64,000 bases of DNA from Mesorhizobium sp. ES1-4 (GTDB lineage: Bacteria > Pseudomonadota > Alphaproteobacteria > Rhizobiales > Rhizobiaceae), in contig NZ_JAIUGV010000005.1 of assembly GCF_020164745.1 (NCBI RefSeq), positions 124,001 through 188,000 on the forward strand, given 5' to 3'. The notes under the pieces are model-generated. The model saw only the letters and a program-made list of their open reading frames with translations, made no database searches and had not been told where the DNA came from. Shown here in pieces: positions 4,230-45,403 of this stretch. A program made the translations under genes and the position numbers. Within the stretch, counting starts at the first letter, position 1. Each line of letters opens with the position of its first letter.

Positions 4230-4998
4230 CAAGGCCGCCGACGGCAAGGGTGTTCCGGTGCGGCTGGACAAGGTTTCGTTTAGTTATGGCGAGGCATTGT
4301 TCGCCTTCGATGTCGAATTCGCCGCGGGAGAAATCACCGCCATCCTGGGGCCGAGCGGCTCGGGAAAGTCGACGCTGCTCAATCTGGTGGCCGGGTTCGA
4401 AACGCCGGGATCCGGCCGCGTGCTGATCGGCGGAGCCGATATCAGCGGCGAGCCGCCGGCCGTGCGGCCGGTGTCGATGGTGTTTCAGGAAAACAATCTT
4501 TTCGCCCATCTTTCCGTCGAGCAGAATGTCGGGCTCGGCCGTTCGCCATCGTTGCGGCTGGCCGATGCCGACCATGCCGATATCGCGGAGGCGCTTGCGC
4601 GCACCGGCCTTGCCGGCAAGGAGAAGCGGCTGCCGCGCGAACTCTCGGGCGGTGAGCGCCAGCGCGTCGCCCTGGCTCGCGTGCTGGTGCGTGACCGCCC
4701 GGTGCTGCTCCTCGACGAACCCTTCGCCTCGCTAGGGCCCGCCCTGCGCGACGACATGCTGGATCTGGTTTCCGGCCTTCATGCCGAGCGTGGCATGACG
4801 GTGCTGTTCGTCACGCACCAGCCGCAGGATGCCCGCCGCGTCGGCCAGAAGGTGGTGTTTCTGGACAACGGCGCCGTCGCCGCCACCGGCACCACGGACG
4901 ATTTCTTTGCCGGGGCTGGTCCGGAGGCGTTCCGGCGCTACATCGGTGCGGGTGCTGGGGATGCCTTATCACGAGATATTGCCCGGAAGCGGACATAA
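4222..4998 (+). CDS. thiQ: Thiamine ABC transporter, ATP-binding protein
   Basis: ATPase of the thiamine importer, 258 residues. Walker [10 protein letters not shown] at 43-51, Q-loop VFQE near 88, signature [11 protein letters not shown] at 141-151, Walker B VLLLDEP at 161-167 and the switch His in FVTHQPQD. The start at 4222 overlaps the thiP stop, and the SDKAADGK opening is followed at once by the first beta-strand of the ABC fold. The frame is open upstream only because it shadows thiP. About 227 bases without a convincing gene follow before the M48 protease. Confidence 0.94.
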
Positions 4999-5225
4999 TT
5001 TACGCTCAAACCGGCCCGAGGCGATGTGGCGCTTGCTTGCCATGACTGGAGTAGTGTGGCTAGGTCCGCTCGAAACCGGTCCGGCGCAGTCCGTGATTTG
5101 CCTACAGCATCCGCCGTACGCCGAGGGTCGCGTACGGAAGTCGTAGCAGTTTATTTGCGCTTGACGTGGTCACGCGCAGGACCTGAAAGGAAGCCGTCCT
5201 GACGATAGGCGTTGACAAGCTACGA

Positions 5226-6695
5226 ATGAATCCGCTGGCGCGCTTTCTGGCGCTGGCGGGTTTTGCCGTGGCGCTGGCAAGCTGCCAGATGTTCACACCT
5301 CCGGAGATCCAGGAATCCGGCTTCCAGCCGTCCGACAAGCCGATCACGGTCGACAATGTCGCCGCCAACAACAAGCTCGCGGAACTCGCCAAGGCACAGC
5401 ATCCGCGCATCCTGGCGACCTATGGCGGCGAGTATTCCGATCCCAAGCTCGAGCGCATGGTCGCCAAGGTCGTCGGCAACCTGACCGTGGTCTCGGCGAA
5501 CCCGACCCAGACTTATCGCATCACCATCCTCAATTCGCCCAACGTCAACGCCTTCGCGCTGCCGGGCGGCTATCTCTACATAACGCGCGGCCTCTTGGCG
5601 CTGGCTAATGATTCGTCCGAGCTTGCCGCCGTCATCGCGCACGAGATGGGCCACGTCACGGCCAATCATGGCTTGCAGCGCCAGCAACTGGAAGCCGAGG
5701 AGGGCCTGGCGACGAAGGTGGTCTCGGATGTGCTTGGCGACAGCCCGACAGCCAAGGCGGCGCTTATCCGTGGCAAGCTCCGGCTGGCGCAGTTCTCGCG
5801 AAACCAGGAACTGGAGGCGGACGCCATCGGCATCAAGTCGATCGGCGAGGCCGGCTATGACCCTTATGCCGCCGGCCGCTTTCTGCAGTCGATGTCGGCC
5901 TACACCGATTTCCGCTCGATCAGCGGCGCCACGGACCCCAGCCTCGACTTCCTGGCCACGCATCCCAGCACGCCCCAGCGCATTGATCTGGCGCAGCGCC
6001 ACGCCCGCCAGTTCGGCGCGCCCGGCGTGGGCACGCGCGACCGCGATTCCTTCCTCGCCGGCATAGACGGCCTGCTCTATGGCGACACGCCCGATGAAGG
6101 CTATGTGCGCGGCGAGACCTTCTTGCATCCGCGCCTTGGCGTGTCGTTCACGGTGCCGGACGGTTTCGTCATCGACAATTCGGCGGCGGCGGTTACGGCA
6201 ACCGGGCCCGGCGACATCGCCATCCGCTTTGACGGCGTGTCGATCGACAAGAACCGTGCCTTGACCGACTATATCAGAAGCGGCTGGGTGGCTGGCCTCG
6301 ACGACAGCACCGTCAAGCAGGAAACGATCAACGGCAACGAGGCTGCGACGGCGCATGCAGGCGCGTCAGGCTGGCAGTTCGACATCGCGGTGATCCGCGC
6401 CGGCGGCCAGGTCTACCGGTTGCTGACCGCGGCCCCCTCCGCCAGCACTTCGCTGGACACGGTGGCGCGCTCGGTCAGCGGCTCCTTCCGCATCCTGAGC
6501 CCGGCTGAAAAAGCGGCGCTGAAGCCACTGCATATTCGTGTGCTCACCGTGCAGCCGGGACAGACCATGGGCTCGCTTGCCGCGCAGATGGTGGGCGTCG
6601 ACCGCAAGCTCGACCTGTTCCGGGTGCTCAACGCGCTGTCGCCGGGGGCCGCTGTTTCGGCCGGCGACAAGGTCAAGATCGTTACCGACAAATAA
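5226..6695 (+). CDS. M48 family metalloprotease, lipoprotein with LysM-like tail
   Basis: Predicted cell-envelope zinc protease of 489 residues related to BepA/LoiP-type M48 peptidases, which act in outer-membrane protein quality control. N-terminal lipoprotein signal with lipobox LASC (Cys20). Zinc site HEMGH at 139-143, with the third ligand in ELEAD at 195-199. The last ~50 residues (VLTVQPGQTMGSLAAQM ... GDKVKIV) look like a LysM-type peptidoglycan-binding module. Convergent with rpoH2, 14 bases between the stops, so envelope stress and heat-shock control could be linked, but the sequence does not prove it. Confidence 0.88.
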   Translation: MNPLARFLALAGFAVALASCQMFTPPEIQESGFQPSDKPITVDNVAANNKLAELAKAQHPRILATYGGEYSDPKLERMVAKVVGNLTVVSANPTQTYRITILNSPNVNAFALPGGYLYITRGLLALANDSSELAAVIAHEMGHVTANHGLQRQQLEAEEGLATKVVSDVLGDSPTAKAALIRGKLRLAQFSRNQELEADAIGIKSIGEAGYDPYAAGRFLQSMSAYTDFRSISGATDPSLDFLATHPSTPQRIDLAQRHARQFGAPGVGTRDRDSFLAGIDGLLYGDTPDEGYVRGETFLHPRLGVSFTVPDGFVIDNSAAAVTATGPGDIAIRFDGVSIDKNRALTDYIRSGWVAGLDDSTVKQETINGNEAATAHAGASGWQFDIAVIRAGGQVYRLLTAAPSASTSLDTVARSVSGSFRILSPAEKAALKPLHIRVLTVQPGQTMGSLAAQMVGVDRKLDLFRVLNALSPGAAVSAGDKVKIVTDK

Positions 6696-6709
6696 GTGCT
6701 GTTACGGGA

Positions 6710-7573
6710 TTAGGCGGCAGTCGCCATGAATTCCGGGTTCTGCTTCACCAGCGCGACCTTGAGCTTTTCCATGGCACGCACCTCGATCTGGCGGACGCGT
6801 TCCTTGGAAATGCCGAGCGTCTCGCCAAGTGCCTCCAGCGTTGCGCCCTCGTCGGTCAGCCGGCGTTCCTCGATGATGCGGAGTTCGCGGGCGTTGAGAG
6901 CGGCGAGAGCTGCTTTCAACCATAGCGCACGGCGCGCGACGTCGATCTTGTTGCCGACAATCTCGTCGGGCAGGGGATCGTCCGAGACCAGGAAGTCCAT
7001 CCGCTCGGTGGCACCCGCATCGTCGGCAAGCGGCACGTTGAGCGAGGAGTCGGGGGCCGAAAGCCGTGAATCCATCATCTCTACATCAGCTTCGGAAACC
7101 CCGAGTGCAACCGACACCTCGCGGTAGAGCGTCTCGTTGGAGAGCGGTTCGGCCCCGTTCGCGAGCCGGGCACGCAAGCGCCGGAGATTGAAAAACAGGG
7201 CCTTTTGCGCCGAACTGGTGCCTCCGCGCACGATCGACCAGTTGCGCAGGATGTAATCCTGCATCGAAGCGCGAATCCACCACGTCGCGTAAGTCGAAAA
7301 CCGCACCTCGCGCTCGGGCTCGAAGCGGGCGGCGGCCTCCAGCAGACCGACATGGCCTTCCTGGATCAGGTCGCCGAGCGGCAGGCCGTAATGACGAAAT
7401 TTCGAGGCCATTGAAATGACCAGGCGCATATGGGCGACAGTAATGCTGTGCAACGCGTTCTGGTCGTTGTCCTCTTTCCAGAGCAATGCCAGCCGGTGCT
7501 CCTCGTCGCGCTCGAGATACGGAGCCCTCATTGCCGCGCGGACCATGACCCGACCTGCCGTGTCTTCCATCAT
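6710..7573 (-). CDS. rpoH: RNA polymerase sigma factor RpoH (sigma-32), RpoH2-type
   Basis: Alternative sigma factor of 287 residues. Region 2 contains DLIQEGHVGLLEA (core binding) and FSTYATWWIRA (-10 recognition and melting). The RpoH box QKALFFNLR at 123-131 is diagnostic for heat-shock sigma factors. Region 4 ends in TLEALGETLGISKERVRQIE. The ATG at 7573 is preceded by AGGAG about 8 bases upstream; the next codon is also ATG. Sequence style (RAAM.APYL..EEE at the N-terminus) resembles rhizobial RpoH2 rather than RpoH1, from memory. Rhizobial RpoH2 is usually linked to general or oxidative stress. Confidence 0.9.
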   Translation of the reverse strand: MMEDTAGRVMVRAAMRAPYLERDEEHRLALLWKEDNDQNALHSITVAHMRLVISMASKFRHYGLPLGDLIQEGHVGLLEAAARFEPEREVRFSTYATWWIRASMQDYILRNWSIVRGGTSSAQKALFFNLRRLRARLANGAEPLSNETLYREVSVALGVSEADVEMMDSRLSAPDSSLNVPLADDAGATERMDFLVSDDPLPDEIVGNKIDVARRALWLKAALAALNARELRIIEERRLTDEGATLEALGETLGISKERVRQIEVRAMEKLKVALVKQNPEFMATAA

Positions 7574-7845
7574 AAGGCGCTCCTGGTTCAGGCGGTGCGG
7601 ATGACAGGCCCGGCTTGAAATGACGGCGCCGCGCCCTACAACAGCCAAACTGCCATGCGCGGGAAAGGTTCCGCTGGCGCGGGCGGGCGGTCTACGACGA
7701 CCGGGCAATTACGGTACGACTGCCCGGAAGGGTAATGCGGCAAGATTGCTCCTGCTGGAGTATTTGATTTCTGAAAACAGCCCTGTTTGGAATGTAATTC
7801 CTTATTTTTCCGAGCTGCATCTGTCATTTTCCACCCTCACAGCAT

Positions 7846-7860
7846 GCCTGATGATCAGGC
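7846..7860. promoter_or_regulatory. Perfect palindrome before cystine-type ABC operon
   Basis: GCCTGATGATCAGGC is an inverted repeat with 6-base arms and a 3-base spacer. It ends 21 bases before the start codon of the substrate-binding protein. Position and symmetry suit a repressor operator, but no regulator gene is adjacent and the binding protein is unknown. Confidence 0.4.
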
Positions 7861-7881
7861 CAAGGACGGGATCACATAAAA

Positions 7882-8655
7882 ATGAAATGGCTCAAGTCGC
7901 TTATCATCGCCGGAACGCTGCAGGCCCTGGCGGTCGCATCGGGCCATGCCGGCGCCAATCTCGACCAGATCAAGCAGGCCGGCGTCATCAAGATCGGTAC
8001 GGAAGGCACCTACGCGCCCTTCACCTACCATGATGCCTCCGGAGCGCTGGTCGGCTTCGACGTCGAAATCGCCAAGGCGATCGCCGACAAGCTCGGCGTC
8101 AAGGCGGAGTTCCTCGAAGGCAAGTGGGACGGCCTGATCGCCGGCCTCGACGTCAAGCGATATGACGCCGTCATCAACGAAGTCGGCATCACGGATGCCC
8201 GCAAGGCCAAGTACGCTTTCTCCGATCCCTACATCGCCTCCAAGGCGGTGCTGATCGTGCGCGGCGACAACACCGACATCAAGAGCTTCGCCGACCTCAA
8301 GGGCAAGAAGGCGGCGCAGTCGCTGACCTCCAATTTCGGCAAGCTGGCCGAATCGAATGGCGCCGAATTGGTCGGCACCGATGGCTTCGACCAGTCGATC
8401 CAGCTGCTTTTGACCGGCCGTGCCGACGCCACCATCAACGACAGCCTGTCGTTCCTCGACTTCAAGAAGCACAAGCCTGACGCCAATGTGAAGATCGCCG
8501 CCCAGGAAGAGAATGCCGATTATTCCGGGGTCATCGTGCGCAAGGGCGATCCGGAGCTGGTCGCGGCGATCAACAAGGCGCTGGCCGACATCAAGGCCGA
8601 CGGCACCTACCAGAAGATCGCGGACACCTATTTCGGCCAGGACGTCTCGAAGTAA
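7882..8655 (+). CDS. Amino-acid ABC transporter substrate-binding protein, cystine type
   Basis: Periplasmic SBP_bac_3 protein of 257 residues. Signal peptide of ~23 residues ends ASGHA. The family opening GVIKIGTEGTYAPFTYHD, the DVEIAKAIADKLG segment and the C-terminal ...KIADTYFGQDV match cystine/polar amino-acid binding proteins (FliY/TcyA type). It is the first gene of a three-gene importer with the permease and ATPase that follow. The actual ligand cannot be fixed from sequence; cystine is the best family guess. Confidence 0.87.
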   Translation: MKWLKSLIIAGTLQALAVASGHAGANLDQIKQAGVIKIGTEGTYAPFTYHDASGALVGFDVEIAKAIADKLGVKAEFLEGKWDGLIAGLDVKRYDAVINEVGITDARKAKYAFSDPYIASKAVLIVRGDNTDIKSFADLKGKKAAQSLTSNFGKLAESNGAELVGTDGFDQSIQLLLTGRADATINDSLSFLDFKKHKPDANVKIAAQEENADYSGVIVRKGDPELVAAINKALADIKADGTYQKIADTYFGQDVSK

Positions 8656-8790
8656 TTTCAGGAAGAGGGCCGGCTGCCGGTCCTCGCAATATCGAGCGGC
8701 GAGCGTCTTTGACGGCTCGCCGCTTTTGTCGTGATATGGCTGACGCATTCGCGCTTCGATGACGCCGCTCGTCCATCCGGAGGATACTTC

Positions 8791-9471
8791 GTGCCGCACT
8801 GGCTGCAACTGATGCTGGATTCGCTGCCCTCGCTGCTGTGGGCCGCGTTGATCTTCACCGTGCCACTGACGCTACTGTCTTTCGTGCTTGGGCTGACGGT
8901 GGGGCTGGGCGCGGCGCTCGGCCGGTTGTTTGGCCCGAAGCCCGTGGTGGCGCTCGTGCGCTTCTATGTGTGGATATTCCGCGGCACGCCGCTGCTGGTG
9001 CAACTGTTCCTGATCTTCTACGGCCTGCCTTCGGTCGGCATCCTGCTCGACGCCTTTACCGCTGCGCTGATCGGCTTCACGCTCAACATCGGCGCCTACA
9101 CGTCGGAGATCATCCGCGCGGCGATAGGCTCGGTGCCGAAAGGCCAGTGGGAAGCCGCCTATTCGATCGGCATGACCTGGAGCCAGGCGATGCGGCGCAC
9201 CATCCTGCCGCAAGCCGGCCGGGTGGCGGTGCCGCCGCTCTCGAACACCTTCATCTCGCTGGTCAAGGACACGTCGCTGGCCGCCGCGATAACCGTGCCG
9301 GAGATGTTCCAGGCGGCGCAGCGCATTGTCGCCACCACCTATGAGCCATTGATCCTCTATGTCGAGGCGGCGATCCTCTATCTGGCGATGAGCTCGGTGC
9401 TTTCGGCCTTGCAGACGCGGCTGGAGGGGCGGCTTAACCGCTATGGCGGCTTCCTGGAGGCACGCTCATGA
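8791..9471 (+). CDS. Amino-acid ABC transporter permease, cystine type
   Basis: Inner-membrane permease of the His/Glu/Gln/Arg family, 226 residues with about five hydrophobic segments. Family landmarks are YVWIFRGTPLLVQLF, the EAA loop EAAYSIGMTWSQAMRRTILPQA and SLVKDTSLAAAI. A GTG start at 8791 is preferred because GGAGG precedes it by about 8 bases; an in-frame ATG at 8731 would add 20 polar residues. The gene is 136 bases after the binding protein and overlaps the ATPase gene by 4 bases. Confidence 0.88.
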   Translation: MPHWLQLMLDSLPSLLWAALIFTVPLTLLSFVLGLTVGLGAALGRLFGPKPVVALVRFYVWIFRGTPLLVQLFLIFYGLPSVGILLDAFTAALIGFTLNIGAYTSEIIRAAIGSVPKGQWEAAYSIGMTWSQAMRRTILPQAGRVAVPPLSNTFISLVKDTSLAAAITVPEMFQAAQRIVATTYEPLILYVEAAILYLAMSSVLSALQTRLEGRLNRYGGFLEARS

Positions 9472-10238
9472 TCGGCCTTGCCAACATCGGAAAGCGCTTT
9501 GGCGACAATCTCGTGCTGAAGGGCGTGACGGTCGCCATCGCCGAGGGCAGCGTCACCGCGCTGGTCGGACCCTCGGGTGGAGGAAAAAGCACGCTGCTGC
9601 GCTGCATCAACCTCTTGGAAATCCCGACCTCGGGCACAGTGCGGATCGGTGACGAAACCCTCGAGTTCCGCCCGGGCGTGAGGGTGCCCACGGCGGACAT
9701 CAGGCGCCTGCGGCTGCAGACCGGCATGGTGTTCCAGAATTTCCAGCTGTTTCCGCATCGCACCGCCATCGAAAATGTCATGGAAGGCCTGGTCACCGTG
9801 CTCGGTTGGTCATCCCAGAAGGCGCATGAACGGGCGCTCGCGCTGCTGGAGAAGGTCGGCATGGCGCACAAGGCGGATGCCTGGCCGGCCACGTTGTCGG
9901 GCGGCCAGCAGCAGCGCGTGGCGATCGCCCGGGCGCTGGCGCCGTCGCCGAAGGTGCTGTTGTGCGACGAACCGACCTCGGCGCTCGACCCGGAGCTGGC
10001 GCAGGAGGTGGTCGATGTGCTGGGTCAACTCGCCAGCGAGGGAACGACCATGGTGATGGCGACACATGATCTGCGCCTGGCCTCCAAGATCGCCCAGGAA
10101 GCGGTGTTCCTCGATGCCGGCGTCATCGTCGAGCAGGGGCCATCCGCCACGCTGTTCGGCAATCCGGAGCGCGAGCGGACCAAGCGGTTCATCGCCACGC
10201 TGAAACAGGAGGCCGCGGACAAGGAGGCCGGCGCATAG
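9468..10238 (+). CDS. Amino-acid ABC transporter ATP-binding protein
   Basis: ATPase of 256 residues that energises the preceding permease. Walker A GPSGGGKST at 34-42, Q-loop MVFQNFQLFPH, signature LSGGQQQRVAI, Walker B VLLCDEPTSALDP and switch His in MATHDL are all intact. It overlaps the permease by ATGA, showing translational coupling. A strong bidirectional terminator follows and separates it from convergent carD. Confidence 0.92.
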   Translation: MIGLANIGKRFGDNLVLKGVTVAIAEGSVTALVGPSGGGKSTLLRCINLLEIPTSGTVRIGDETLEFRPGVRVPTADIRRLRLQTGMVFQNFQLFPHRTAIENVMEGLVTVLGWSSQKAHERALALLEKVGMAHKADAWPATLSGGQQQRVAIARALAPSPKVLLCDEPTSALDPELAQEVVDVLGQLASEGTTMVMATHDLRLASKIAQEAVFLDAGVIVEQGPSATLFGNPERERTKRFIATLKQEAADKEAGA

Positions 10239-10268
10239 AGCGGTAATCCGCGGCACTCCCCAGAAACG

Positions 10269-10297
10269 AAAAACCCGGCGCGTGGCCGGGTTTCGTT
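10269..10297. terminator. Bidirectional intrinsic terminator
   Basis: Hairpin AAACCCGGC-GCGTG-GCCGGGTTT (arms 10271-10279 and 10285-10293), flanked by A-rich sequence on the left and TTTCGTT on the right. It lies between the convergent ABC ATPase and carD genes and can serve both strands. Confidence 0.8.
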
Positions 10298-10317
10298 AAC
10301 GCGTGAAGGCGAAAAGC

Positions 10318-10899
10318 TCAGGCAGCTTCTTCCTGCTCGGCTTCCTCGTTGTCGGCCTTGGCGCCGCGCTTGGGGCCTTTGTTGAGGTTGACCTCGATCA
10401 AGCGCACGGCTTCGGTTTCCGACATGCGGTTGACCGCCGCGATCTCGCGGGCCATGCGGTCGAGAGCCGCCTCGTAGAGCTGGCGTTCGGAATAGGACTG
10501 CTCGGGCTGGTTGTCGGCGCGGTAGAGGTCGCGCACGACTTCCGAGATCGAGATCAGGTCGCCCGAATTGATCTTCGCGTCATATTCCTGGGCGCGGCGC
10601 GACCACATGGTGCGCTTGACGCGGGCGCGACCCTGCACGACCTTCAGCGCGCGCTCGACATAGTCTTCCTCCGACAGCTTGCGCATGCCGATGGAGGTCG
10701 CCTTGGCGACCGGCACCTTCAGGCGCATCTTGTCCTTCTGGAAGTCGATGACGAACAGTTCCAGCTTGTGGCCCGCCACTTCCTGCTCATCGATAGAAAC
10801 GATCTGGCCGACGCCATGCGCCGGATAGACGATGTACTCGCCGGTCTTGAAACCGTGACGCGCGGCTGTGGACTTCTTCTGCGGGGTTATCGTTGCCAT
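10318..10899 (-). CDS. carD: CarD/CdnL-family transcriptional regulator
   Basis: Cytoplasmic RNA-polymerase-binding protein of 193 residues. The N-terminal CarD/TRCF interaction domain runs from about residue 15 (FKTGEYIVYPAHGVGQI) to 75; the rest is helical DNA-contacting domain with WSRRAQEYDAKINSGD, and the C-terminus is acidic and Lys-rich. In alphaproteobacteria CdnL stabilises open complexes at rRNA and other growth promoters. The ATG at 10899 is chosen because residues upstream are low-quality and the MATITPQKK start fits the family. The gene is followed by the terminator at 10269. Confidence 0.9.
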   Translation of the reverse strand: MATITPQKKSTAARHGFKTGEYIVYPAHGVGQIVSIDEQEVAGHKLELFVIDFQKDKMRLKVPVAKATSIGMRKLSEEDYVERALKVVQGRARVKRTMWSRRAQEYDAKINSGDLISISEVVRDLYRADNQPEQSYSERQLYEAALDRMAREIAAVNRMSETEAVRLIEVNLNKGPKRGAKADNEEAEQEEAA

Positions 10900-11267
10900 T
10901 ACGCCCTGAACTCCTTGTTGTGGGCCGGCGGCGGTGCCGGCTGAACTCACGTGATCGGGGTCACCGATCATTAGCCGCACAACAGATGAACCCACCGGAA
11001 AAGCCGGACCGGCAAACCGCATGAATTGCGACCGCCTGGCCCAGATCGCTCTGGTCCGGAATGGGATTTTCACCTTTCAGTGATTTGGGGCGTCTGCGCC
11101 ATAAATCGACGTTGTGTCACCGGCATGTTTCGTTGATGTAACACAAAAAGTCGGAAGAATCAAGGTTTTGCTGCGTAAGCGGAGGCCATAACCGATCGCC
11201 GCCTGTCAAGGCGGTTAATCCGACCTACCTGTTACGCTGCGTCATACAAACCTTTACAGCGGCGTTG
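10900..11267. other. Intergenic region between fdxA and carD
   Basis: No gene is supported here. It should contain the carD promoter. A hairpin CCGCC-TGTCAA-GGCGG at about 11199-11214 lies past the fdxA stop and could help end fdxA transcription, but it lacks a U-run on that strand. Confidence 0.5.
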
Positions 11268-11606
11268 TCAATCACCTTCGCCGGGCTCGGCGGAGAAGTA
11301 TTTCTCGAACTTGCCGGCCTCGCCATCATAGGTCTTGGCGTCGGCCGGTGGCTCCTTTTTGGCGGTGATGTTGGGCCATTTCTCGGCATATTCGGTGTTG
11401 ATCTGCAGCCATTTGTCGAGGCCGGACTCGGTGTCGGGCTTGATCGCGTCGGCCGGGCATTCCGGTTCGCAGACGCCGCAGTCGATGCACTCGTCGGGAT
11501 GGATGACGAGCATGTTCTCGCCTTCGTAGAAACAGTCGACCGGACAGACCTCGATGCAGTCCATATATTTGCATTTGATGCAGTTGTCGGTCACGACATA
11601 GGTCAT
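11268..11606 (-). CDS. fdxA: Seven-iron ferredoxin FdxA
   Basis: Cytoplasmic [3Fe-4S][4Fe-4S] electron carrier of 112 residues. Cysteines at 9, 12, 17, 21, 25 and at 40, 43, 46, 50 form the two cluster motifs ([14 protein letters not shown] and [12 protein letters not shown]). The C-terminal extension rich in Lys and Pro is normal for FdxA, which is about 110 residues. The start at 11606 is fixed because the first Cys motif begins at residue 9. Part of the minus-strand row helicase, S4 protein, fdxA, carD, an order I recall as common in Rhizobiales. Confidence 0.94.
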
Positions 11607-41095: not shown

Positions 41096-41512
41096 ATGAC
41101 GGCCTACACATTCAACGACAGGCTCTTTGCGTTCGAGGTTTTCGACGACGAGGTCGTGGTTCTTCATGTCACCGAGGGAACGTATTTTGCCTGCGGCGGC
41201 TGGGTGGTCGAGGCCTGGAGCGCGCTGACGACGGGGTGCTCGACGCAACGCATCGTCGATGCTGTCTCGGGGCACTATGGAATTGCCGCCAACGAGATCG
41301 AGCGCGAACTGACCGATCTCACCGCCCGGCTTGAGCAGGAGGCCATCTTTCTGAACGTCGAAGCGGGCGATGTCGATGAAGCGATCGTCACCTTCTCAGG
41401 CCGGCCTTTTCAATCGGCCTCGTTCGAAAAGCATGCCGACATGCAGGATCTGCTGACACTCGACCCGATCCACGACGTCGACCCGAAAAAAGGTTGGCCG
41501 ATCTTGAGTTGA
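41096..41512 (+). CDS. PqqD-like peptide-binding protein with acidic tail
   Basis: 138 residues. The N-terminal ~85 residues have the PqqD-type pattern (LHVTEGTYFACGGWVVEAW, IVDAVSGHYGIAANEIERELTDLTARLEQE): a winged-helix RiPP-recognition-like fold. A 28-residue tail (111-138) follows with MQDLLTLDPIHDVD and GWP, and the chain ends in Ser. The tail lacks Cys and is not a known leader, though a similar D-L-L-DPIH-VD-GWP motif occurs in other PqqD-like proteins in my memory. It is 4 bases before the kinase gene. It has no PQQ biosynthesis genes beside it. Confidence 0.8.
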   Translation: MTAYTFNDRLFAFEVFDDEVVVLHVTEGTYFACGGWVVEAWSALTTGCSTQRIVDAVSGHYGIAANEIERELTDLTARLEQEAIFLNVEAGDVDEAIVTFSGRPFQSASFEKHADMQDLLTLDPIHDVDPKKGWPILS

Positions 41513-41516
41513 GACG

Positions 41517-42584
41517 ATGCCGGTTGCGGAGCTGATCCGGGGGCCGGGGGCGGCGCTGGACTATTTCCTGGCATTCCTGTCGAGGTCGGAGCGTTGTCCG
41601 CCAGTTTCGAAGGCCGCAAGGTTCGGCCGTACGACGGTGATGACGATGTTCCACGGTTTCACGGCTGAGGCAGCCTATGCCGAAGCATTGCGGCCTGCCG
41701 ATGCGTCCGGCTCGGCAGCGTTCACCATCCACGTCATCGACGGCGCCGCCTGCGGGCTGCAACGCCCGCGGCTGTCTTGGACGGCGGCCGATTTCGGCGA
41801 AAAGCGCGTCGTTCCCGCCTGGTCCGATGCCGACACAACCACTTATTTTCTTCGTGGCGAGGATGGATTCGCGGTTGCCGACTGGACCACGCGCCGAGCG
41901 TTCATCTGGCTGCCTTCATCGCGGGCCGTGCCCTGGTACGAACGGGCAGCGCCGTTTCGCTGGTTGTTCGATGGTCTTGCGGCGCGGCTCGGCATGTCGA
42001 CGCTGCATGCGGCCGCGGTCGGGTTCGAGGGCCACGGCGTGCTGATCGCCGGGCGCGGCGGCGTCGGCAAGTCGACCATGGCGCTGGCCTGCCTGGGAGA
42101 CGGGCTGGATTATGTCGGCGACGATTACTGCCTGTTCGACCATCACCAGGAGCCGCGCGTCCACGCGCTCTATTCGACGGCGAAATGGCGGCGGGGGGCT
42201 GCGGTGGTTCCAGCCTGGCTGAACGCGGTGCCAGCCGATGCCGCCGATATGGCGGAGCATAAGAACATCCTGTTTGTCGATCGCCTGAGACAGGATCAAT
42301 TGGTCAAGGAATTGTCGATTGCCGCCATCGTCATCCCCGCGGTCGCCGGCCTGCCGGAACCGGTCTTGCAGCCCATCCCGCCGCAGGTCGCCTTGGCAAA
42401 CCTTGCCGCCAGCACAATCGCGCAGTCCGAACATGACGGCGCAAAGGTAATGCGGGCGATTGCCCGCCTGGCGCGTGCCGTTCCAGCCTACCGCCTGCAG
42501 ATGTCGCGCGATGCCGACGCTTCCGCGGCAGCGATCCGTTCGCTGCTGACGCAGCCGGGTTCGAAAAGCGGAGACGCGCCATGA
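41517..42584 (+). CDS. HPr kinase-related P-loop kinase (HprK-like)
   Basis: 355 residues. N-terminal ~150 residues without a known motif; then a kinase core with His164, Walker A GRGGVGKST at 179-187 and the YVGDDYCLF segment at 199-207 that resembles the HprK acidic site. Relatives include HprK-type enzymes in lasso-peptide and PqqD-linked clusters that phosphorylate peptides or proteins. No HPr gene is next to it. It starts 4 bases after the PqqD-like gene and overlaps the glycosyltransferase by 4 bases, so the three genes form one translation-coupled operon. Confidence 0.83.
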   Translation: MPVAELIRGPGAALDYFLAFLSRSERCPPVSKAARFGRTTVMTMFHGFTAEAAYAEALRPADASGSAAFTIHVIDGAACGLQRPRLSWTAADFGEKRVVPAWSDADTTTYFLRGEDGFAVADWTTRRAFIWLPSSRAVPWYERAAPFRWLFDGLAARLGMSTLHAAAVGFEGHGVLIAGRGGVGKSTMALACLGDGLDYVGDDYCLFDHHQEPRVHALYSTAKWRRGAAVVPAWLNAVPADAADMAEHKNILFVDRLRQDQLVKELSIAAIVIPAVAGLPEPVLQPIPPQVALANLAASTIAQSEHDGAKVMRAIARLARAVPAYRLQMSRDADASAAAIRSLLTQPGSKSGDAP

Positions 42585-44011
42585 GCGAAGCAGCCGTCCT
42601 TCCCTCGCTCAGCATCATCGTTCCGGTCCACAACAACCATCGCTATCTGCCGGCCGCGCTGGCCAGCATCCGGGCGCAGAATGCCGCGGGCTGCGAGGTC
42701 ATCGTGGTCGATGACGGCTCGGAGCCGCCGATCGCGCCGCTGGTGGAGGCTGCGTTCCCCGAAGCGATACTCCTGCGGCAAGCCAATGCCGGGCCGTCGG
42801 CGGCCCGCAATCGGGGCCTGCGGCAGGCCGCCGGCGAATTCGTGGCGTTTCTCGACGCCGACGATCTGTGGCCGGAAAAAGCTCTTGCGTTGCTGGCCAA
42901 GGGCTTTCGCGACGCGCCCGGCGCCGATGTCGTGCAGGGTCATGTCAGGCGTTTCGGCGAGCCGGCAGAAGTCACTGCCGCGGCGCCGGGTATATTCGGA
43001 TCGCCCTATCTCGGCTTCAATGTCGGGGCGCTTATGTCACGACGGGCAGCGTTGTTCGCGGCAGGGCTGTTCGATGAAAGCCTGCGGCAAAGCGAGGATG
43101 TGGTTCTGTTCATCCGCTTGCGCGAAACCGGCGCCCGCCACCTCATCATCCCCGACACGGTGCTGGAGTACCGCCGTCATCAGGACTCGCTGACCGTGAC
43201 GCAGGAGCCGAAGGCTTTGAAGCACGGGGCGGCCGAGAATTGGATCCGGCTGGTGCGCAACAGCCGGCGGCGCACACCGGGCCCACGGGCATCAGCACCG
43301 GCAGCGGGCGGGCCGCGGGTTTCGGTCTTGCTGGTCGTTCGCGACGGCCGCAAATATCTTCCGTCGGCGTTGGCCAGCATCAGGGCGCAGACGCTGGCTG
43401 CCACGGAAATCATCGCGGTTGTCGGGCCCTCCTCCGACGGCACCGCCGACTATCTTCAGGCGCAGGACGATGTTCGCGTCGTTGCCCAGTCGGAAGAAGG
43501 ACTGGCCACGGCGCGCAACCAGGCAGTCGCCGAGGCCGGCGAGCCATTGCTGGCATTTCTCGACCACGATGATCTGTGGCATGAGCGCAAGCTGGAAATG
43601 CAGGCGAAGGCTATAGAATTGTTCGTGATGTCGGCCGCCTGCATCAGCAATTTTCGTCTTGTCGACGACACCGGGTCGCCCGACCCGACTGTTGTCGACC
43701 GGTCGGGTAATACGCTGCCGCGACTGGGCTGGACACCCAGCGCGCTGCTTGTTCACCGCGGCGTCTTCGATCGCGTCGGCGGGTTCGATCCGGCGCTTGG
43801 CATGGGCTGCGATACCGATTGGTTCCGGCGCTTGCGACTATCCGGCACGCCAATAGGCGTCGCCTCTCAGGTGCTGATGGAAAAGCGCCTGCATGACAAC
43901 AATCTCAGCCGCGAGAACGAACGAAACCGGCAAGCGATGTTCCGGATGCTGGGCAAACACCGCGCCGAACTGCGCGCCGCGCGCCTGGCTGGCGACGAGA
44001 CATCCGAATAG
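42581..44011 (+). CDS. Glycosyltransferase with two tandem GT2 domains
   Basis: 476 residues carrying two GT-A type domains. Domain 1 runs from about 8 to 225 with VVDDGSE and LDADDLW at 91-97. Domain 2 runs from about 245 to 465 with LVVRDGRKYLPSALASIRAQ, PSSDGTADY and LDHDDLW at 327-333. Both have acidic DxD motifs so both may be active. No signal peptide. It probably transfers sugars in sequence onto a lipid, polysaccharide or protein. It is coupled to the kinase and PqqD-like genes, which is unusual for a plain polysaccharide gene. Confidence 0.88.
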   Translation: MSEAAVLPSLSIIVPVHNNHRYLPAALASIRAQNAAGCEVIVVDDGSEPPIAPLVEAAFPEAILLRQANAGPSAARNRGLRQAAGEFVAFLDADDLWPEKALALLAKGFRDAPGADVVQGHVRRFGEPAEVTAAAPGIFGSPYLGFNVGALMSRRAALFAAGLFDESLRQSEDVVLFIRLRETGARHLIIPDTVLEYRRHQDSLTVTQEPKALKHGAAENWIRLVRNSRRRTPGPRASAPAAGGPRVSVLLVVRDGRKYLPSALASIRAQTLAATEIIAVVGPSSDGTADYLQAQDDVRVVAQSEEGLATARNQAVAEAGEPLLAFLDHDDLWHERKLEMQAKAIELFVMSAACISNFRLVDDTGSPDPTVVDRSGNTLPRLGWTPSALLVHRGVFDRVGGFDPALGMGCDTDWFRRLRLSGTPIGVASQVLMEKRLHDNNLSRENERNRQAMFRMLGKHRAELRAARLAGDETSE

Positions 44012-44026
44012 GGCGGCAGGGATGCG

Positions 44027-45403
44027 TCACAGCTGCGCGGCTGCCTCCGGCGCGCCGAGACGCATCGCCTCTGCCATCTCCCGATCGGCTTCGTCGTGGC
44101 GATCATGGCGCTTCAGCCAGAGGGCCGTCCAAAAGCGCAGCAGCGGGTCTTCAGGGCATTCGTTGCGCCAATGCAGGATGCCGCCTTCCACCTGAAAGGC
44201 ATCGTCGTCGAGTCCCTGCGCATAGGCTTCCAGAGCGGCGGTGCGGCCGGCATGCCAGTCGATGATGGCGTCCTGGGCCGCAGCCTCATTCCAGTCCTGC
44301 GACAGCAGAAACAGCAGCGATGGGGAGCGCGCCGGCATCGTTGGATCGCCACGATCCAGAAGCCGCCGCTTAGGCCGAGGCATCGTCGCTTCGATTGTCC
44401 GCATCAGCGTTGCGACATGGCGCTCCGCCGAGAACATCGCCAGTGCCGATTGGCGCGCCTCACGGCCAAGCGCCCTGCGTTTGTCCGGGTGACGATGGAG
44501 GTGTTGAATGGCTTCGACGAACTCGTCCTCGCTGCGTGCGACAATGCCGTTCCGGCCATCGATGACGAACCGGACGGGGCCGCCATGCGGCAGGATCACC
44601 GGCGGAACGCCTGCCAGCATCGCCTCCTGCAGGCTCTTGTCGCTCGTCGCGTAGGTCCGCTCGGCCAGCGGGTAGGCAAAGACATCGGATGTCTGCAGCA
44701 CCGAGGCGATGTCCTCGACAAAGCCAAGGCATTCGAACCGCTCGGGCATCGGTGCGCCGCCAATGGCTGCGGCAATGCCCGGATCGAGCACTCCGCCGCA
44801 GATCCGCACCTTGAGATCGGCAATGTCCAGCCGCGCCATCATGTCAATGAAGCGCGGATGCATCTTTCCACGATTGGTCGTACCGATATAGTCGGCGTTG
44901 AAGCCGGCGTGCGGCCGTGGCGTTATCGCGCCAACGCGCTGGTTGTCGACAAGGCCGGGAACCACGCGCGCCGTTTCGAATTCGGTGGCGACCTCCGGCG
45001 GCGGCTTCGCCGTGAAGACCAGCTGCGCCATGTCGGCCAGAAGCCGCCGGTTGAACAACTGCGGCGCGTGCGCGCCGAGGACCTTCACCCAGAGCAGGTA
45101 GCGTGCCGCGGGCAGATCGCCGGCCAGCAGGCGCCAGAAGCGCGGCGTGCTCCAGAAATGCAGCAGCACGACATCGGCGTTGTCGATGCGGGCGATTGTC
45201 GTTTCGCGCCCGGATCCCCGCAGGATTTCGACACCCTGCCGCTTGAGTTCGAGCACGAGCGGCATGTAGTGGTCGGCGGATTGAAGCGTGACCACAACAT
45301 GCCTGATGTCGGGATGGCTGATCCTGGACAGTTTGACGAAGGTGACAAGGCAGCGTGTCGGCCCGCCGGGACCGAGGTTGGGAATGACATGCAGGAGGTT
45401 CAT
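44027..45403 (-). CDS. GT4-type glycosyltransferase with C-terminal extension
   Basis: 458 residues. A GT-B fold from 1 to about 345: MNLLHVIPNLGPGGPTRCLVTF, a nucleotide-sugar site around GGPVRFVIDGRNGIV, and E..AMLAGVPPVIL. The last ~110 residues (from SPSLLFLLSQDWNEAAAQDAI) look like TPR-like helical repeats with repeated Asp/His/Glu-Ala pattern. Such a tail could bind a partner. It is convergent with the GT2 gene, 15 bases between stops, so it may serve the same pathway without being in the same transcript. Confidence 0.85.
   Translation of the reverse strand: MNLLHVIPNLGPGGPTRCLVTFVKLSRISHPDIRHVVVTLQSADHYMPLVLELKRQGVEILRGSGRETTIARIDNADVVLLHFWSTPRFWRLLAGDLPAARYLLWVKVLGAHAPQLFNRRLLADMAQLVFTAKPPPEVATEFETARVVPGLVDNQRVGAITPRPHAGFNADYIGTTNRGKMHPRFIDMMARLDIADLKVRICGGVLDPGIAAAIGGAPMPERFECLGFVEDIASVLQTSDVFAYPLAERTYATSDKSLQEAMLAGVPPVILPHGGPVRFVIDGRNGIVARSEDEFVEAIQHLHRHPDKRRALGREARQSALAMFSAERHVATLMRTIEATMPRPKRRLLDRGDPTMPARSPSLLFLLSQDWNEAAAQDAIIDWHAGRTAALEAYAQGLDDDAFQVEGGILHWRNECPEDPLLRFWTALWLKRHDRHDEADREMAEAMRLGAPEAAAQL

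Follow-up and report, generated by a model that had tools for sequence, protein, structure and literature searches.

An HprK/PEPCK-fold kinase cassette whose RiPP recognition element seems to carry its own leader

A 64,000-nucleotide stretch of contig NZ_JAIUGV010000005.1 of Mesorhizobium sp. ES1-4, referred to here as the window, contains a module of four genes. They encode a PqqD-like protein (T), an HprK-related kinase (K), a tandem glycosyltransferase of family GT2 and, facing these, a glycosyltransferase of family GT4. T is a recognition element (RRE) of the kind that serves ribosomally synthesized and post-translationally modified peptides (RiPPs), extended by a conserved tail, and T and K form a coupled pair. 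The cassette is a real and widespread variant of the systems that tailor lasso peptides and of those for linear polyphosphorylated peptides (LPP; Popov et al. 2026, PMC13381572), with an RRE that seemingly carries its own leader. Full-text literature searching, with most subscription papers and all preprints outside its reach, found no publication on the cassette, which is not proof that there is none. Locus (L) and genome (G) numbers are those of this analysis.

The module and the coupling of T to K

An open reading frame (ORF) check of the window confirmed the four frames predicted in a first-pass annotation of the sequence, at the positions predicted (Table 1). All four products are as described there, including the tail DLL.LDPIH.VD..GWP of T and its final Ser. 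The close spacing of three of the genes was likewise borne out: the start codon of K follows the stop codon of T after 4 nt, and the ORFs of K and the tandem GT2 overlap by 4 nt. T is recognized by the Pfam model PqqD at 26.4 bits, above the cut-off of 23.4, and K by Hpr_kinase_C at 29.1 bits, under the cut-off of 33.3.

Table 1. Features of the module, in window coordinates
Feature	Position	Strand	Evidence
T: RRE of the B1 type, 138 aa, whose C-terminal tail is leader-like and core-like	41096..41512	+	Pfam PqqD, AlphaFold2, TbiB1 match
RRE domain of T (residues 1-90)	41096..41365	+	AlphaFold2 model, structure match; groove residues mapped
Leader-like motif F105-x-x-A-x-F110 (FxxPxL in most relatives)	41408..41425	+	73-row alignment, model strand 109-113, covariation
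Core-like tail DMQDLLTLDPIHDVDPKKGWPILS (residues 115-138)	41438..41509	+	Motif conservation; residues 121 onward mean pLDDT 57-60
K: HprK/PEPCK-fold kinase, 355 aa; H164, P-loop G179-S186, D202-D203, K223, K249	41517..42584	+	Profiles, alignment, model, tree
Tandem GT2 glycosyltransferase, 476 aa	42581..44011	+	Pfam (two GT2 stretches); homologue in L026 at 61% identity
GT4 glycosyltransferase with C-terminal tail, 458 aa, convergent	44027..45403	-	Pfam GT4; homologues near T in 9/81 loci

The proposal that the PqqD-like protein and the kinase belong to one system is supported by their distribution. Searches of 61 related genomes for T at E <= 0.001 and for K at E <= 1e-30 gave the same 19 genomes, with 21 copies of each, and every K adjoins a T by coordinates. 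In a wider set of 49 genomes, comprising 50 of the 80 loci described below and chosen by the authors, K occurs in 47 and T in all 49. Of the 53 K, 49 have a same-strand T no more than 5 kb away, and for 34 the distance is at most 300 bp; these figures refer to 58 of 69 T rows, 11 matches to the RRE only (57.6 bits or less) having been left out. K itself is rare. Of 190 genomes of the class, 3 gave matches of at least 218 bits and another 26 gave weaker ones; of 299 genomes of the phylum, 5 gave matches at E <= 1e-40, four of these from the window's genus. All eight of these full-length K, which were detected independently of T, have T in the same locus. Distant HprK-like proteins do stand without a PqqD-like partner: none of the 26 weaker loci (L109-L134) has the tail pattern within the approximately 3.2-3.6 kb examined.

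A scan of one genome per species, covering 84,980 species, gave at least 249 relatives of T. The best 80 of these, the window and a second cassette on another contig of the window genome (L003, with T, K, two GT2 enzymes and a PF14907 nucleotidyltransferase) make up the 82 loci considered below. By record titles, the best 80 come from Proteobacteria, Cyanobacteria, Chloroflexi, Bacteroidetes, Nitrospirae, Acidimicrobiia and others. Six-frame models around T detected K in 75 of 82 loci and a nucleotidyltransferase in 65 (E <= 1e-4). At E <= 1e-5, 76 of 81 loci contain GT2-like sequence and 26 of 81 have a match to an MsbA-like ABC exporter; many loci are cut by contig ends.

The same four-gene set, with GT4 again convergent, is present in a metagenome-assembled genome of Xanthobacteraceae (L026), where T, K, GT2 and GT4 are 49%, 55%, 61% and 60% identical to the window proteins. 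This recurrence, together with that of the tail described below, speaks against a chance arrangement. T of the window type was not found in 36 other genomes of the genus, 18 of which have other T types of at most 37% identity. The module is probably a transferable unit with GT4 as a part of it, since 9 of 81 loci have a GT4 homologue near T. Its G+C content is 0.649, the flanks having 0.641 and 0.659 and T alone 0.588; the flanking genes look like housekeeping genes by eye. PADLOC returned no match for seven proteins, and a defence system was set aside. Elsewhere, a radical S-adenosylmethionine (SAM)/SPASM-like frame, recognized by eye, lies divergent from a third type of Mesorhizobium T cassette whose tail ends in RRELGDS (L017, 1-1330, minus strand). 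A type I phosphodiesterase family protein (PF01663) is encoded near the cassette in L034 (13967-15337) and also in L063, and the region ahead of T in L045 (1-8216) has a 1414-aa nonribosomal peptide synthetase frame with condensation, adenylation and carrier domains, together with another large frame from that cluster.

Fold, tail and groove of T

T belongs to the PqqD superfamily and has an RRE fold of the lasso-B1/LppB type, plus an extra tail. Its AlphaFold2 model, with a mean predicted local distance difference test (pLDDT) score of 87.7, matches TbiB1, a lasso RRE solved with its leader, at Z 11.7 with 31% identity over 84-88 residues, and the lasso RRE 6jx3 at Z 11.4; PqqD (5sxy) ranked lower, at Z 8.8. 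The sequence profile of T matched the solved relatives TbiB1, PbaB1 (9x90), TfuB1 and LppB (9x8z), and a fifth match, tektin-3, is due to chance. The profile also picks up, at 24-58 bits, six lasso-type RREs in genomes with T. Unlike T, none of these has the tail, the match ending at profile position 88-99.

The tail has the consensus [FY]xxPxLxx[YFH]xDMxxLLxLDPIH[DE]V[DE]xxGWP. It was aligned without gaps in 73 of 82 rows, near copies (L044, L051, L069, L072, L074, L078, L083, L093 and L103) being left out, and positions are numbered from the D of DPIH. F or Y stands at -18 in 61 of the 73 rows, P at -15 in 59 and a hydrophobic residue at -13 in 72; Y, F or H occupies -10 in every row, D occupies -8 in 70 and M or L occupies -7 in 71. 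LLxLDPIH[DE]V[DE] follows, with GW downstream in 73/73. The upstream half and GW are free of ascertainment, because the search patterns spanned only DPIH[ED]V[ED][EP] and a stretch near FDGE. All 21 T copies in the 61 related genomes, found by whole-protein search, have the tail, and a search for the tail in 50 genomes gave 60 matches, all of them on the 60 T and none on other proteins. Since three variants, found through a kinase or whole-protein profile, keep YxxPxLxxYxDMxxLLxLDP and end otherwise, the GWP half is dispensable. An Asp lies 18 residues past the first aromatic residue of the motif in 73/73 rows, a count that is partly ascertained, and also in these three variants, which have no DPIH.

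Discrete RREs recognize leaders with the motif [Y/W]xxPx[L/V/I/F/A] (Popov et al. 2026, PMC13381572), with which the tail FxxPxL of T agrees. The leader contacts described for the crystal structures of PbaB1 (16 positions) and LppB (14 positions) in the same source were mapped onto T. At the equivalents of PbaB1 38, 39, 41, 48, 65, 83, 87 and 92, a hydrophobic residue is present in 71-73 of 73 T, and the mean entropy of ten hand-picked groove columns is 1.46 bits, compared to 2.47 for the remaining RRE columns. In the LPP structure, D70 of LppB bonds the leader Tyr (PMC13381572). The corresponding column of T contains D or E in 7 of 9 rows with Tyr at -18 and in 7 of 52 with Phe (Fisher p = 2e-4). 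It is the best of 92 columns tested, the next best giving p 0.02, and p is 0.007 with D/E/N/Q when sequences are collapsed at 50% identity. In 26 further T rows outside the alignment, three of the four with Tyr have D at this column and none of the 12 with Phe does (p = 0.007); the three rows with Tyr and D are the three variants without the GWP half, the fourth Tyr row has Q, and 13 rows that misfit the motif pattern (7 distinct proteins, each except L138 under two locus numbers) were excluded. The model of T has a strand at 109-113, directly after the leader-like motif, with pLDDT 95 for the block 101-110; confidence is low at residue 121 and beyond.

The match of the tail to the leader motif, and the covariation of its Tyr or Phe with the acidic column, make T look like an RRE that has its leader built in. 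Self-docking of the tail into the groove is what this covariation and the one predicted strand would suggest. Most polar partners of the first leader residue are lost from T, which accords with Phe at that place.

Several observations weigh against this reading. The evidence for self-docking comes from covariation and predicted secondary structure, not from coordinates. The equivalents of PbaB1 I44, Y69 and V71 are hydrophobic in only 48, 58 and 17 of 73 T, the hydrogen-bonding E75 and Q79 are not retained in most, and the conserved hydrophobic residues of the groove may in part be plain fold residues. The strict leader-like motif is absent from 18 of 73 T, and L138, L106 and Mesorhizobium types with S or T there are also without it. 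T of the window has a degenerate motif, FxxAxF, and combines Phe with Glu, contrary to the trend. The covariation table excludes 12 of the 73 rows, which have a residue other than F or Y at -18, and the 12 Phe rows of the further test include near copies, all rows sharing ancestry. Conservation of DPIH in L026-L105 is partly ascertained by the scan pattern, L106 has DPVH, and the three variants without the IHxV..GWP half keep kinase and glycosyltransferases. Seven of 82 loci showed no kinase nearby; G540 and G541 have no K at E <= 1e-30, though L048 of G541 gives a 69-bit match. The window cassette, finally, has no nucleotidyltransferase match, and no exporter was noticed in it.

The kinase and the search for a precursor

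The motif H164-G179-G182-G184-K185-S186-D202-D203 of K has the spacing of H148-G163-G166-G168-K169-S170-D186-D187 in the lasso kinase BsfK. Mutation of these residues in BsfK, two of the glycines excepted, reduced activity (PMC10368454). The whole model of K, N-terminal lobe included, resembles PEPCK (Z 16.9, root-mean-square deviation 4.9, 295 residues), and its catalytic half resembles HprK (Z 13.7). K was not regarded as a plain HprK, because the latter likeness is confined to about 138 residues and the former is nearly full-length. The cassette also fits other known families poorly, with scores far below the cut-offs. A bifunctional HPr kinase/phosphatase was rejected at a TIGR00679 score of 31, the cut-off being 240, and the SynChlorMet system at a ScmC score of 25.4, the cut-off being 125. 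The mycofactocin glycosyltransferase MftF was dismissed with a TIGR03965 score of 140.2 vs 280. The first-pass annotation had pointed to catalogued HprK-related/PqqD-related pairs of this kind; TIGR04352, the NCBIfam model of the HPr-rel-A system with its HprK-related kinase, gives 34.8 vs 200, a poor fit.

A tree built from 99 catalytic domains places the 70 T-linked kinase rows on one side of a branch with support 94/95, next to the kinase of the lasso-like cluster of L041 (95/86), and 12 of 24 other HprK-like rows lie past a branch with 100/100; these values are to be read with the bootstrap not settled. A kinase alignment contains 64 of 69 listed kinases; in the tree, two kinases (L026/L223 and L041) were entered twice, those of L265, L111 and L112 were removed by a filter, and the label "TK" denotes a score above 150 bits. 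Fold, groove residues, covariation and tree together uphold the tie to RiPP leader binding and lasso kinases that had been suspected from the window. In six loci (L034, L057, L059, L060, L086 and L091) the kinase forms part of longer frames, of about 600-880 aa, and is apparently a fusion with other domains.

The short precursor-like frames that had been thought worth seeking near T did not materialize in the 82 loci, where nothing stood above control or convinced by eye. The lasso-like precursor motif had nine matches among 8133 small ORFs in the 82 loci, none in the window and none convincing by eye. An LPP precursor pattern gave 0 strict matches near T (control 1) and 20 loose ones (21 in the reversed-sequence control), and two weak stretches resembling the tail in small ORFs near T (L062 and L072) are both broken by nearby stops. 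The statement that no separate precursor, pyrroloquinoline quinone (PQQ) gene, radical SAM enzyme or cyclase lies beside the module agrees with these motif scans and with inspection of the window ORFs by eye, no family search having been made for each. An asparagine-synthetase-like cyclase was likewise not seen by eye among the window ORFs, without a family search; in L030 an AsnB-like ORF, again recognized by eye, lies beside T. No SpI-like peptidase corresponding to LppS is among the annotated shared neighbour families of T, for which no dedicated search was made.

Lasso B2 (PF13471) was found in 11 of 50 genomes with T, the other 39 having no match, and in one (G537) it lies within 5 kb of T. 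In the window genome (G000) it is confined to contig C7. A lasso peptide cluster was rejected for the window, there being no B2 in the cluster and no lasso precursor beside the RRE. Two regions of contig C7 (L264 and L265) have matches to lasso B2, an RRE, an HprK-like kinase and a nucleotidyltransferase; in L264, an ORF that resembles a lasso precursor, with YETPNL and Ser as its last residue, lies within 6739-6897 on the minus strand. In L041 of G537 (region 4865-11547), a lasso-type RRE, a kinase and a PF14907 nucleotidyltransferase stand directly upstream of a T-K pair, with the B2 match about 4 kb from T.

Interpretation and comparison with known systems

The explanation we favour, tentatively and with not quite even confidence, is that T is an RRE with its own leader, in which the tail is a leader mimic or pseudo-precursor and the loaded RRE an adaptor for the kinase set. 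The B1-type groove would hold [FY]xxPxL of its own tail, in cis or from a neighbouring T. T would thereby be permanently loaded, with the near-invariant LDPIHxVDxxGWP exposed where a lasso or LPP precursor shows its core. Loaded T might then recruit and switch on K and, through K, the nucleotidyltransferase and glycosyltransferases, much as the RRE BsfB1 accelerates the lasso kinase BsfK in the bsf system (PMC10368454). By homology to PsmK/PsmN, a hydroxyl would be phosphorylated and a sugar joined to the phosphate. The tail is probably not consumed, the acceptor being something else, such as a glycan, a lipid or an unlinked protein. The coupling of T and K, the RRE fold with its groove, the conservation of the motif, and the kinase motif of K with its place in the tree are direct results of this analysis, whereas we infer self-docking, the adaptor role of T and the chemistry of the cassette.

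A less probable, though serious, alternative makes T a fused precursor, the tail being a true core joined to its own RRE; the cassette enzymes would modify tail or linker of T to give a phosphoglycosylated protein or, once cleaved, a peptide. The order RRE, leader motif, conserved core speaks for it, as do the restriction of the tail to T and the failure to find a separate precursor. Ser or Thr occurs within the 20 residues ahead of the motif in 71 of 73 T, at -9 in 56 and from DPIH onward in 53. No position, however, has an invariant Ser or Thr, 20 of 73 tails have neither from DPIH to the end, including the closest relative L026, which ends GWPRY, and the three variants retain the enzymes without the GWP half. 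Nor is there a peptidase among the annotated shared neighbour families, not all families being annotated. The adaptor reading is preferred over a fused substrate because of these 20 tails and because the LPP Ser position is Asp in T. The first-pass annotation had proposed that the tail of T, which ends in Ser, could be phosphorylated by the kinase and could bear sugars. PadeK-type kinases do use a C-terminal Ser (PMC9266682), and Ser is also the last residue both of T in the window and of its paralogue L003. As a general substrate this residue is highly improbable in view of the tails devoid of Ser and Thr: the last residue is Ser in 10 of 73 tails, and relatives within the genus have S, T, N or P there. 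Conservation of the tail motif in other genomes thus reaches GWP, the three variants aside, and does not extend to the final Ser.

The RRE of T might instead serve a separate precursor encoded elsewhere in the genome, with the tail as an autoinhibitory plug. Discrete RREs of lasso and LPP systems act in trans, G000 has its lasso-like clusters on another contig, and the B2 match of L041 lies close to T. This is improbable, however, given that LPP-like small ORFs near T are not in excess over the reversed control, that lasso B2 occurs in a minority of T genomes, and that each of five lasso-like regions in G000, G560, G562 and G524 has its own RRE and HprK-like match. Slightly less credible again is a surface-polysaccharide locus of the ordinary kind, where T and K would control the glycosyltransferases and no RiPP chemistry would take place. 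The frequency of GT2-like sequence would suit it, and LPP clusters too lie in capsule loci (PMC13381572), but the leader-like motif, the groove and their covariation would then have no obvious reason.

A bolder form of the adaptor reading, which we regard as speculative and rather unlikely, takes T as a natural fusion of RRE and pseudo-precursor whose invariant Asp replaces the LPP Ser. It would mimic a loaded, already phosphorylated precursor and permanently activate a kinase, nucleotidyltransferase and glycosyltransferase set that has been diverted from the tailoring of peptides to the synthesis of a phosphate-linked glycan. The spacing of BsfA argues against this, since it puts the equivalent residue at the Pro after that Asp. 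If true, it would mean a RiPP tailoring system without a RiPP in Proteobacteria, Cyanobacteria, Chloroflexi, Bacteroidetes, Nitrospirae and others. In the lasso and LPP systems of the papers cited, the precursor is a separate molecule whose leader is bound by a discrete RRE. A built-in-leader RRE kept with the same kinase across phyla would imply that RiPP tailoring enzymes are detachable from a consumable precursor. The DPIH-GWP tail is a handle for some 250 or more unexplained loci (249 relatives), and the system bears on the purpose of phosphate-plus-sugar tailoring in lasso and LPP clusters, often in capsule loci.

Of the known systems, the HPr-rel-A system likewise has an HprK-related kinase, and K is far below its cut-off. 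Phosphorylated lasso systems (bsf, paeninodin and pseudomycoidin; PMC10368454, PMC8498205, PMC9266682) combine an RRE, a kinase and a nucleotidyltransferase, the last tied in pseudomycoidin to hexose addition on the phosphate (PMC8498205, PMC9266682); unlike these, the window genome has B2 only on another contig, and no lasso precursor was found beside T. Ruminal lasso clusters show the same accessory mix of HPr kinase, nucleotidyltransferase and GT2, with lasso machinery present there (PMC7533575). LPP (Popov et al. 2026, PMC13381572) is another. A discrete B1-like RRE, an HprK-like kinase, an MsbA-like exporter and many glycosyltransferases occur both there and in T loci; the uncharacterised nucleoside triphosphate transferase of LPP, LppN, may have a counterpart in the nucleotidyltransferase that a model built here from PF14907-type neighbours matched in 65 of 82 T loci, the window cassette not among them. 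The LPP leader motif is YxxPxV, with His at motif position 9 where T has Y, F or H. The LPP consensus YxxPxVLxHQxIxFETxxS ends in a phosphorylated Ser, probably the one used by LppK as judged by spacing, and T has Asp at the equivalent position. In contrast to LPP, the leader-like motif is carried by the RRE protein itself, and the T cassette is found in many phyla, whereas LPP is described in that paper as restricted to Bacillota.

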